Shown here piece by piece: positions 27,322 to 58,174 of a stretch of DNA of 64,000 nt. The notes under the pieces are model-generated. The model was not told the origin of the DNA, searched no databases, and was given only the letters and a program-made list of their open reading frames with translations. Source of the DNA: Bdellovibrio bacteriovorus (GTDB taxonomy: Bacteria; Bdellovibrionota; Bdellovibrionia; Bdellovibrionales; Bdellovibrionaceae); the NCBI RefSeq assembly GCF_001592745.1, contig NZ_LUKD01000006.1:62001-126000 (forward strand), read 5' to 3'. Within the stretch, counting starts at the first letter, position 1, and the number at the start of each line of letters is the position of its first letter. The position numbers were made by a program, and so were the translations under genes.

Positions 27322-27864
27322 TTAAAATGTTTCGCAGCGAACAGAGGCCATGCAGTACACGGGGTTCACAGAGTTTCCACAGGTTTTACGTGCATTGTAT
27401 TCTGCTTCCACTGGAGAACGCCCTTCTCCACGGAAGATTTTGTTATACCCAGTATCTGTAAGAACACAAAGAGCCCCTTGAGTCAGACGATCTTGAGCCG
27501 GGTCGCTGCACTTCACAGAGCCATTGCAGTAAACGGCATTCACTGAATTGCCACAAGACTCTTTAGCTTTCGCTTCGGCCTCAAGCTTCGTGCGCCCCTT
27601 CCCCAGAAATACTTTGTTGTAACCAGTGTCCGTCGTCATACAAGCCACTTCTACAATCGGAGGTGGCGGCGGCGGCATCGGAGGCGTCTGATATTCCAAA
27701 TTAGAAACACGTTGGTTCAAATTATAGATAAGTCCTTCGAGCTGACTCACCTTCGTCTCAAGAATACGAATGCGCTCGGCCTCGCGACTTTGCGCGTGAG
27801 CAGAAACACCCAGCAAAAGACAACAACCTAAAACCAAAACCAGTGATTTTCTAAGTACAGACAT
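27322..27864 (-). CDS. Secreted coiled-coil protein with two Cys repeats (paralogue 1)
   Basis: 180 residues from the ATG at 27864 (TTGGGGGAT upstream); the frame to 27915 adds a non-signal extension. Signal peptide MSVLRKSLVLVLGCCLLLGVSAHAQ; a coiled coil with Leu/Ile heptads (ILETKVSQLEGLIYNLNQRVSNLEY); a Pro-only linker; then two homologous ~48-residue units, each starting CxxTDTGYNKxFxGxGRxxxEAE and ending GNSVNxVYC. Four to five cysteines per unit suggest disulfides. A trimeric or dimeric stalk carrying paired head domains is a reasonable model. No family is recognised. Its closest relative is the next gene upstream, so the pair arose by tandem duplication. Confidence 0.78.
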   Translation of the reverse strand: MSVLRKSLVLVLGCCLLLGVSAHAQSREAERIRILETKVSQLEGLIYNLNQRVSNLEYQTPPMPPPPPPIVEVACMTTDTGYNKVFLGKGRTKLEAEAKAKESCGNSVNAVYCNGSVKCSDPAQDRLTQGALCVLTDTGYNKIFRGEGRSPVEAEYNARKTCGNSVNPVYCMASVRCETF

Positions 27865-27994
27865 CGCGATCCCCCAAGAACAGTGGTTACCAAACTTCAC
27901 CAAGAAGTAAGACAAAATCCCTTAAAGCAATAACAAAGCCAAGTACGAAAGAGTCAAAAATACACCGGCGTTTACCAGTTCATGTGGGAAATAA

Positions 27995-28050: not shown

Positions 28051-28608
28051 TTAGAAAGTATCGCAACGAGCATTCGTGTTGCAGTAAGTAGCATGAACCG
28101 CGTTGTTACAAGCCTTACGAGCATTGTACTCAGCTTCAAGAACGCTCTTAGCTTCACCTTTGAACGTCTTACCGTAACCAGAATCGGTAACAACACAGAT
28201 AGCGCCTTGGATAACGCGATCTTGTACCGGATCACTGCACTTCAAAGTATTGTTGCAGTAAGTAGCATGCACGTTAGCTCCGCACACTTCCTTAGCTTTA
28301 GCTTCCGCCTCAAGCTTCGTGCGTCCCTTACCCAAGAAAACCTTGCCATAACCACTATCCGTAATCATACAAGCCACTTCAGAAACCGGCACCGGCGGAG
28401 GAGGCAAAGTCGGTGTCCCACGATACTCAAGATTAGAAACACGCTGATTCAAATTATAAATCAGGCTTTCAAGCTGCTGAACCTTCGACTCAAGAATACG
28501 AACACGCTCGGACTCACGATCCCCACGGTTCTGCGCTTGAGCAGACACTCCAAGGAAAAGACAACAACCTAGCACCAAAACAACGGCTTTTCTAAAACCA
28601 GTAATCAT
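28051..28608 (-). CDS. Secreted coiled-coil protein with two Cys repeats (paralogue 2)
   Basis: 185 residues, ATG at 28608 with GGGAG upstream. Same layout as its neighbour: signal peptide with GCCLFLGVSAQAQ, coiled coil (ILESKVQQLESLIYNLNQRVSNLEY), short Pro linker, two Cys-rich units (CMITDSGYGKVFLGKGRTKLEAE, CVVTDSGYGKTFKGEAKSVLEAE). The coiled-coil NLNQRVSNLEY is nearly identical in both, whereas the head units differ at exposed positions (TGYNK versus SGYGK, AVYC versus ATYC). Each gene has its own terminator, so they are separately transcribed paralogues. Function unknown. Confidence 0.78.
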   Translation of the reverse strand: MITGFRKAVVLVLGCCLFLGVSAQAQNRGDRESERVRILESKVQQLESLIYNLNQRVSNLEYRGTPTLPPPPVPVSEVACMITDSGYGKVFLGKGRTKLEAEAKAKEVCGANVHATYCNNTLKCSDPVQDRVIQGAICVVTDSGYGKTFKGEAKSVLEAEYNARKACNNAVHATYCNTNARCDTF

Positions 28609-28960: not shown

Positions 28961-29043
28961 ACTCGGTCCAACTATGACGATACGAACAGTTTTTTAAAGA
29001 GAGACAGTTACCGCCACCGTGGCGGTAAGCAAATGCGTTAAGA
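28961..29043. repeat. Direct repeat unit A (partner 29282-29367)
   Basis: Starts ACTCGGTCCAAC, continues TGACGATACGAA, and ends with the palindrome and GCAAATGCGTTAAG. The other copy reads ACTCGCTCCAAC, TGACGATACGAA, GCACATGCGTCAAG in the same order, with a few indels. This is clear homology over about 85 bases. Confidence 0.8.
29008..29028. repeat. 21-bp palindrome P1
   Basis: Arm TTACCGCCAC, single central base, then the exact complement. Perfect 10-bp arms. Confidence 0.85.
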
Positions 29044-29157
29044 CGGATTGAGAAGACCTTCTTGATGCTAAATTGAAGAGTCGAGCGCCATTTGTTCAGG
29101 TAAGTGCCTATTAAATACGAATCAAAAACACGCCCTTTCGAGACAAGAAGCGATAGC

Positions 29158-29178
29158 TTACTTCCATCGTCCAAGTCA
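29158..29178. repeat. Degenerate palindrome P2
   Basis: Left arm TTACTTCCAT intact, right arm decayed (GTCCAAGTCA instead of the complement). Preceded by AGACAAGAAGCGATAGC, similar to the sequence before other copies. Confidence 0.6.
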
Positions 29179-29281
29179 GAGCGATAGCAGAGTTATCTTC
29201 AAAGAAAACAAGCACCTTCTAAAGAAAAAGGAACCTGGTACATTTTCATTACTAAGGGAAGCAGGTACCTTTGAGTACCGT

Positions 29282-29367
29282 ACTCGCTCCAACCGCTGAC
29301 GATACGAAGCGGGTCTCTCCAGAGAAGAAACTTACTGCCATCGTGGCAGTAAGCACATGCGTCAAGG
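29282..29367. repeat. Direct repeat unit B (partner 28961-29043)
   Basis: Second copy of the ~85-bp unit, including palindrome P3 and preceded by GGAAGCAGGTACCTTTGAGT at 29258-29277. Confidence 0.8.
29332..29352. repeat. 21-bp palindrome P3
   Basis: Arms TTACTGCCAT and GTGGCAGTAA around one base; one position is a T-G wobble. Paired changes relative to P1 (CCGCC/GGCGG to CTGCC/GGCAG) keep the stem. Confidence 0.85.
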
Positions 29368-29459
29368 ATAGAAGTGCTTTTAAGCGCCATACACTCAAGC
29401 CGTTCCGCCATTAGACATTGGCAAATACAAATGGGAAATCCAGAAAGAAACGCAGAAAG

Positions 29460-29480
29460 TTACTTCCATGATGGAAGTAA
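29460..29480. repeat. 21-bp palindrome P4
   Basis: Arm TTACTTCCAT, central base, exact complement, followed by an A-run (AAAAAA). Confidence 0.85.
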
Positions 29481-29639
29481 AAAAATCAATCTACCATCTT
29501 CAAACAATAGGAAAGCACTTATCTTTTAATTGAAAAGAACTGAGTACCGTTAGCACGCAAAAAAAGCCGGTTTCATCTCTAGAAAGAGACTGTGACACCC
29601 TTCGAACGAGCACAAAGGGAAGCAACTTTTTTAGAAAGT

Positions 29640-29660
29640 TTACTTCCACGGTGGAAGTAA
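29640..29660. repeat. 21-bp palindrome P5
   Basis: Arm TTACTTCCAC, central base, exact complement, followed by an A-run. Preceded by TTTTTTAGAAAG, like the TTTTTTAAAGAGAG before P1. Confidence 0.85.
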
Positions 29661-29817
29661 AAAAAGATTACCAGCACCCTTTCAAAACAAAAGGAAGCAG
29701 GTACCTTTACCCGCCGACCCCACATACGCGCGAAAGCGCATCTGCACGAAGCCTCTACCCTCCGAAAAGCCCACTAAAACCCCTCGAAGAAAAAACAACG
29801 CAAAAGCCCCGGGAACA

Positions 29818-29982
29818 GGCTTGGGCAGAGGCTTTCTGCTTTGAAGCCCAAGTTCCGCAGCGCCCGAAAATCCAAACTAGCAATCAGAAAACAAAAGAAA
29901 AAAGAAAAGGGAGCCACAAAGAGCTCCCTTCGCGCGAGGATGTGTCCGAAGGGCTTCAAAGCAGAAAGCCTCTGCCCAAGCC
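29818..29982. repeat. Inverted repeat (two 32-bp arms) flanking the ACIII terminator
   Basis: 29818-29849 and 29951-29982 are exact reverse complements over 32 bases, 101 bases apart. Each arm can also fold on itself (GGGCTT with AAGCCC, inner GCAGA with TCTGC), so it looks like two inverted copies of a palindromic element, in the manner of paired REP sequences. Confidence 0.85.
29893..29930 (-). terminator. Intrinsic terminator of the actABCDEF operon
   Basis: AAGGGAGC (29907-29914) pairs with GCTCCCTT (29923-29930). Read on the minus strand the stem is followed by a T-rich tract (TTTTCTTTTTTCTTTTG). It lies 66 bases past the actF stop, inside the loop of the large inverted repeat. Confidence 0.8.
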
Positions 29983-29995
29983 CGTCCCGAGTCGC

Positions 29996-57899: not shown

Positions 57900-58001
57900 T
57901 CACCTAGACCAACGTCCATTTTCCCTCTGAAAAATTCGCTCCCACGGCGCCGCCAAGGCGCCCAAAAAACACCGAGGACGCGACTCTTAGTTTATCGATT
58001 A

Positions 58002-58129
58002 GGCTTGGTGTATAGCATTTTAAATTAGCGGCCTTCGGTGGCGCCACGATGGCGCGAACCGAAGCGAAGCTTCGGCACCGACCGAGCCCGGAAGGCGTGC
58101 CGCTAACTTAAAATGCTATACACCAAGCC
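58002..58129 (+). repeat. 128-bp inverted repeat between gspK and gspL
   Basis: Arms 58002-58032 and 58099-58129 are 31 bases with one mismatch (GGCTTGGTGTATAGCATT and its complement at the outer ends). The GC-rich core includes a second partial pairing (GCCTTC/GAAGGC) and CCGAAGCGAAGCTTCGG, so the RNA could fold into one long branched stem. No open frame or transposase is inside. Confidence 0.85.
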
Positions 58130-58174
58130 GAACCTCGCATAAACTAAAGTCAAGGATTCATGGAGGAATTCACG

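Follow-up and report, generated by a model that had tools for sequence, protein, structure and literature searches.

Short palindromes in a Bdellovibrio spacer as probable REP-like repeats linked to a DUF222-HNH endonuclease gene

What are the short palindromes that stand in a row in one spacer of Bdellovibrio bacteriovorus, and why are their arms so well matched? A preliminary description of the window (the whole stretch of 64,000 nucleotides analysed here) listed five 21-bp copies, took matched changes on the two arms to mean that the symmetry itself had been kept, and proposed either binding sites for a dimeric protein or a family of structured RNAs. Its coordinates and spacings hold, with successive copies 150, 174, 128 and 180 bp apart (Table 1). 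Four copies are perfect and match TTACNNCCANNNTGGNNGTAA exactly (29008, 29332, 29460 and 29640), but the one at 29158 is decayed, with a broken right arm, and has lost its folding (z -0.26). At up to three mismatches, the window contains nine matches, compared to 1.6 +/- 1.4 in dinucleotide shuffles, and none of 100 shuffles reaches nine. The homologous units described around two of the copies are real: TGACGATACGAA, the palindrome and a one-sided tail recur together at ~28975 and ~29297. These units are a local expansion of ~400 bp relative to the sister species (genome G001), making the window array longer than its counterpart there. The tail-less copies of the CTTCC type could be a separate subfamily.

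Table 1. Palindromes and tails of the window array, with in-frame palindromes from two enzyme genes of genome G032
Feature	Position	Strand	Remarks
Palindrome TTACCGCCACCGTGGCGGTAA, CCGCC type	29008..29028	+	Hairpin of -14.8 kcal/mol over 49 nt
One-sided tail GCAAATGCGTTA (GC-N4-GCGTYA)	29029..29040	+	Common to ~19 host and 25 sister-genome copies
Decayed palindrome TTACTTCCATCGTCCAAGTCA	29158..29178	+	Left arm intact; right arm broken, 3 mismatches
Palindrome TTACTGCCATCGTGGCAGTAA, CTGCC type	29332..29352	+	Sister-genome ortholog has a CCG centre
One-sided tail GCACATGCGTCA	29353..29364	+	Oriented as the tail at 29029
Palindrome TTACTTCCATGATGGAAGTAA, CTTCC type, no tail	29460..29480	+	Sister-genome ortholog differs in the centre only
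Palindrome TTACTTCCACGGTGGAAGTAA, CTTCC type, no tail	29640..29660	+	Pattern match, hairpin
In-frame palindromes in linkers of two G032 host enzymes	L396 (~1125), L405 (~1179)		

Other repeats share this neighbourhood. A second repeat, GGTACCTGCTTCC...AAGGAACCAGGT, occurs in the window at 29225-29272 and 29661-29708 and at loci L036 and L037; elsewhere in the genome, inverted copies of it stand on either side of a RAYT gene, and in G001 one copy appears to replace half of a CTTCC palindrome. At 29812-29988, a 38-nt inverted repeat with arms 101 nt apart surrounds the actF terminator; its arms differ in sequence in G001 and G007, with complementarity still apparent. Beside the array lie two tandem paralogous genes of unassigned family (27322-27915 and 28051-28608, ~70% DNA identity), which are absent at the corresponding place in G007. 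Finally, a multicopy element of ~130-170 nt is found in the window at ~57990-58140 and at L285-L300, L018:1240-1370 and L031:610-780. Its branched, conserved core (GGCCTTYGCCGGCGC..GCGCGAACCGCC..GGCGGCGRCGAGCC..GGCGTGCCGACCG) is enclosed by a long outer stem of 22-40 bp that pairs almost perfectly, is locus-specific in sequence and often ends GATTTG/CAAATC. The host genome has 17 copies, 20 of 24 genus genomes contain the element, and it has no Rfam match.

The palindromes of the window belong to a genome-wide family. The preliminary description had suggested searching for further copies with compensatory changes, and many are present: allowing changes and inspecting the loci, we counted ~40 in the host assembly (3.76 Mb, 12 contigs) and 44 in the sister species G001. 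The strict pattern TYACYKCCAYSRTGGMRGTRA has 25 matches in the host and 26 in G001, against 0 in each for a reversed control pattern, and at up to two mismatches the host has 51 matches against 21 for the reversed pattern. Remaining members of the genus have few copies or none, and a broad contig scan returned mostly chance-like matches in coding sequence together with a few Bdellovibrionota contigs. No viral link emerged among three IMG/VR contigs that match the right arm and tail, none of which contains the palindrome. An unclassified metagenome-assembled genome, FW305_bin.15 (L143, L152, L154, L162), has its own family, TTACCGCC-ANNNT-GGCGGTAA, set within a longer conserved repeat; the similarity of its arms to the window palindromes is possibly convergent. 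The matched arm types CCGCC/GGCGG, CTGCC/GGCAG and CTTCC/GGAAG are genuine, and across 84 copies the pair 6/16 is G-C in 52 and T-A in 28, with a mismatch in the other 4. Perfect symmetry is not usual, however, as only ~37% of copies genome-wide have all nine paired positions.

Screening the copies for conserved genes identified one gene type in the first survey. In three independent lineages (host, G001, G020 and G026), the palindrome lies inside genes encoding a DUF222 region followed by an HNH domain. We searched 27 genomes for DUF222, then inspected the loci, and found 25 distinct in-gene copies. All are in a single reading frame and encode TATVAV or a close variant; in the loci measured they lie 232-289 nt before the gene end, in the linker that joins the DUF222 region to the C-terminal HNH domain. 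A second palindrome is usually present upstream of the gene. Of the 55 palindromes outside the two expanded genomes, 15 are in a DUF222-HNH gene and another 7 are upstream of one at a distance below 1.5 kb (22/55), although there are only ~2-3 DUF222 genes per genome. The host gene (L304/L020; PF02720 E 1.3e-7, PF01844 E 2e-6) carries a palindrome and tail, GTTACTGCCACCGTGGCAGTAAGCAATCGCGTCA, exactly as in the window. Its upstream copy, 940 bp away, is inverted and has the same tail, so that the two tails point outwards. All four near-symmetric palindromes of G020 have the hybrid arms CTGCC/GGAAG; two are at nuclease genes, one is upstream and one is dispersed. Within the genus, 10 of 17 genomes with DUF222 have at least one palindrome, while six of seven genomes lacking a DUF222 match have none and the seventh has a single asymmetric, chance-like match.

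Genome G032 has at least 10 dispersed paralogous nuclease-gene units of ~1.05 kb, 80-87% alike, each with a palindrome. The units cease to be homologous close to where the gene ends; in several of them, homology also stops close to an upstream palindrome that has decayed. By Pfam, HNH is called in these paralogs and DUF222 is not; they match our local profile at E < 1e-100, a partly circular result because the profile was built partly from them. G032 also has intergenic palindromes. In addition, palindromes encoding STATVAV lie in frame in the flexible linkers of two further G032 proteins, methionyl-tRNA synthetase (MetG) and the E2 component of a 2-oxoacid dehydrogenase (dihydrolipoamide acyltransferase).

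Several observations bear on what is conserved within the nuclease genes. Among the 25 in-gene copies, the Thr and Ala codons pair through their third bases, the combinations being ACC-GCG in 10, ACT-GCA in 13, ACT-GCG in 2 and ACC-GCA in 0 (with GAA as the codon in two ACT-A cases), giving a Fisher p of 2e-5 that is optimistic because the copies are related. In one G032 paralog (L404), both codons have changed where most relatives retain ACT-GCA. At L351, both arms have changed with amino-acid replacements (TTDAVV to TSDAEV), and the palindrome is retained. We found DUF222-HNH genes and no strict palindrome of the window type in G004, G007, G011, G013-G015 and G018. Two of these genomes have other types: in G018, ACCACCG-NNN-CGGTGGT and related palindromes occupy the same gene position in 8 of 11 genes, and G004 has ATTGCCGATGCGGCAAT both in the DUF222-HNH gene and upstream of it. 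The other genomes in this group have no alternative type in the gene. Taken together, the codon pairing, the double change in L404, the G018 and G004 types and L351 indicate that the nucleic acid, and not the peptide alone, appears to be conserved; the synonymous covariation in the nuclease genes does point to a constraint on the nucleic acid. Further palindromes are shared among DUF222-HNH loci of G004 (L316, L385, L329), G020 (L324, L352, L386) and G019 (L325, L355): two of them, CCTCAAGCGCA-CGA-TGCGCTTGAGG and CCTGACGAGCA-TCG-TGCTCGTCAGG, precede the gene, and a third, ACACCCG-CTA-CGGGTGT, lies at its end.

About half of the host copies have GC-N4-GCGTYA on one side, and the tails of one array all point the same way. 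Tailed copies qualify the claim of matched arm changes further, as their departures from symmetry are mostly one-sided: almost every mismatch affects one of the outer two positions at the end away from the tail. The non-Watson-Crick pairs mostly place C opposite A on the strand with the tail 3' and therefore G-U (or G-T) on the other strand, with a bias of 13 vs 1 in the host and 16 vs 5 in G001. A role in transformation uptake is not supported, since arm plus tail is almost confined to full palindromes. The G-U bias, the stable hairpins that palindromes form on both strands and the location of 10 of 17 host loci between convergent genes by naive ORF calls are what might be expected if the copies were structured RNA elements or bidirectional terminators with stems kept by selection at the RNA level. 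We nevertheless give this little credence. Most copies lack a following U-tract, and canonical U-tract terminators stand beside several of them (L024, L035, L023 and L028), as does the actF terminator at 29906-29931 in the window. The palindromes are thus not needed for termination, and we reject a terminator role. In the nuclease genes, moreover, the G-U strand is the antisense strand, and Rfam has no family that matches the palindromes at gathering or relaxed thresholds.

The same asymmetry bears on the other proposal of the preliminary description, in which the palindromes are sites where a dimeric regulator, encoded by DUF222-HNH or another gene, controls genes without any mobility. A near-palindrome of 21 bp with a partly conserved centre suits such a site, and the upstream copy lies near the nuclease-gene promoter. 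Palindromes also show fewer differences than their flanks do (6.3% vs 13.8%), a comparison biased by the finding of copies by pattern. Against this, tailed copies vary mainly at one outer end, and their strand bias is unlike the expectation for a plain symmetric dimer site. Placement argues the same way: the palindromes are nearly all intergenic, in short arrays within spacers, and by naive ORF calls the 17 host loci are convergent in 10 cases, co-directional in 6 and divergent in 1, mostly away from promoters. Flanking genes compared between genera revealed none in common, and thus no shared regulon, and in-frame copies are also found in linkers of unrelated enzymes. We consider gene control through dimer binding improbable. 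Neither of the two original proposals named an element that is REP-like and linked to a nuclease, but a protein-bound site may still be part of the answer, with the DUF222-HNH nuclease as candidate.

Comparison with the sister species shows how arrays change. Orthologous copies exist in G001 for nearly all host loci; only L016 lacks a clear counterpart. Copy number varies: three palindromes at L031 correspond to one hybrid in G001 (L230), one at L024 to two (L226) and one at L017 to four (L087), and the end points of gain or loss fall inside palindromes for the first two pairs. In 4 of 15 orthologous pairs, the centre triplet is the exact reverse complement, although C-G swaps are otherwise rare (1.6% of G/C sites in surrounding DNA). 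At L034, a stem extension is altered on both sides relative to L227 (TAAAT/ATTTA vs TAATT/AATTA). The centre flips, array changes and two-sided stem change are footprints of template switching and recombination, and template switching in quasipalindromes is documented (PMC8794818, PMC7202029). As a result, covariation in the array is by itself no proof of selection, and it may owe as much to these processes as to selection. The earlier statement that the symmetry has been kept must therefore be divided: some of the symmetry in the arrays can come from recombination and template switching, while the synonymous covariation inside genes points to constraint. It is conceivable, if rather unlikely, that the symmetry is mainly a mutational by-product, with template switching and recombination between copies matching the arms without selection. 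The flipped centres, the end points inside palindromes, the change from one copy to four and the documented mechanism all fit. Such a by-product does not account for the tail, for the constant position of the palindrome in the nuclease gene, for signatures specific to individual genomes or for the persistence of mismatched hybrid arms in the G020 copies. It can also be compatible with an explanation based on DUF222-HNH.

A further candidate for the partner enzyme is the RAYT transposase, a Y1/HUH enzyme. Were the palindromes ordinary REPs mobilised by RAYT, the HNH genes would be mere insertion targets. The host has two RAYT-like genes, whose terminal repeats occur in the same spacer as the array (29225-29272 and 29661-29708), and placement between convergent or unidirectional genes matches the description of REPs (PMC3733652). 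However, the repeat flanking the host RAYT genes is a different one (GGTACCTGCTTCC...), with no 21-bp palindrome nearby, and the numbers do not track: G001 has 1 RAYT gene and 44 copies, G012 has 10 and 2, and G017 has none and 2. On these two grounds we reject RAYT as the partner enzyme. The GTAG tag is also absent beside the stem, and chance targeting cannot account for a fixed, in-frame site in many HNH genes holding lineage-specific palindromes. Mobilisation by RAYT is accordingly very improbable.

We conclude that the palindromes are probably dispersed, non-autonomous REP-like repeats of a DUF222-HNH endonuclease element of the Bdellovibrionaceae. This judgement applies to the linkage-based reading as a whole, and we are less confident of the cutting itself. 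The gene linkage is observed, and from it we infer recognition, cleavage and mobilisation by the protein. The parent locus would consist of a single gene that has a palindrome upstream of its start codon and another, in frame, in the stretch linking DUF222 to HNH. Its protein would recognise the palindrome (in the host lineage, palindrome plus tail) and nick or cut it; repair or copying would then disperse the site, in a manner similar to the action of RAYTs on REPs. Additional copies would settle in spacers, mostly between convergent genes. There, recombination between palindromes may multiply them or reduce their number, and template switching mediated by hairpins may invert centres and make arms more alike. 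The window array would be a nest of such non-autonomous copies. Several observations run against the DUF222-HNH element. The sister species already has copies at nearly all of the host loci, and no recent jump was seen. Several genomes have the gene without the palindrome. The host nuclease gene lacks the window's CTTCC arm type.

The closest known systems are the REP/BIME sequences and their RAYT enzymes. REP palindromes are common in bacteria, and the family described here agrees with their general definition, consisting of short, multicopy palindromes (~40 and 44) that are nearly all intergenic. It resembles the GTAG super-family in being extragenic (20-40 bp there), in its tens of clustered copies, its subfamilies with compensated stems, its convergent or unidirectional placement and its cognate enzyme gene with palindromes nearby. 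It differs in lacking a GTAG next to the stem, having GCN4GCGTYA on one side and A/T-rich sequence on the other, and in its arrays, which are head to tail here and head to head in REP/BIME. The linked enzyme is also a DUF222-HNH nuclease and not a Y1 transposase, and its gene contains one of the cognate copies, in frame. With the tag absent and host RAYT genes flanked by another repeat, the family falls outside the GTAG super-family. The CGTC-tagged REPs (PMC3733652, Di Nocera et al. 2013) are similar in having no RAYT, a stem of 8-9 bp and CGTY in the tail. Here, however, GC-N4-G intervenes, placing CGTY 7 nt from the stem, and the loop is 3 nt, whereas that super-family has an adjacent CGTC and 4-5 nt; clusters are common in our family, and the CCA tail was not seen.

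On the enzyme side, the linked host gene has the order of DUF222 then HNH that defines 13E12-like proteins. The REP13E12/13E12 family of mycobacteria likewise consists of DUF222 and HNH genes that are repetitive within one genome (PMC10589994), but the literature we found assigns these genes no function and describes no linked short palindrome family. Our literature search, which was incomplete, returned no link between DUF222 and REP-like palindromes. Rickettsia RPE, which are short palindromes inserted in frame into genes for host proteins (PMC3733652), parallel the MetG and E2 copies of G032, but a nuclease gene with the same palindrome is not described for RPE (PMC3733652). RAYT transposases are the only enzymes known to be linked to REPs, and none is known for the CGTC super-family (PMC3733652). 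The palindromes of Bdellovibrio therefore form a REP-like system without the GTAG tag, the RAYT link or a stem-adjacent CGTC, and with a candidate enzyme other than RAYT. More tentatively, and at somewhat less than even odds in our judgement, DUF222-HNH endonucleases form a second class of enzyme, distinct from RAYTs, that recognises short palindromic repeats, spreads them and evolves together with them, while keeping its own recognition palindrome in frame within the nuclease gene. If so, it could serve as a model for REP families without a known transposase. Through this linkage, REP-like repeats and DUF222-HNH proteins each gain a partner that can be tested, as the protein and the 21-bp site are both defined and occur in natural variants that change together.
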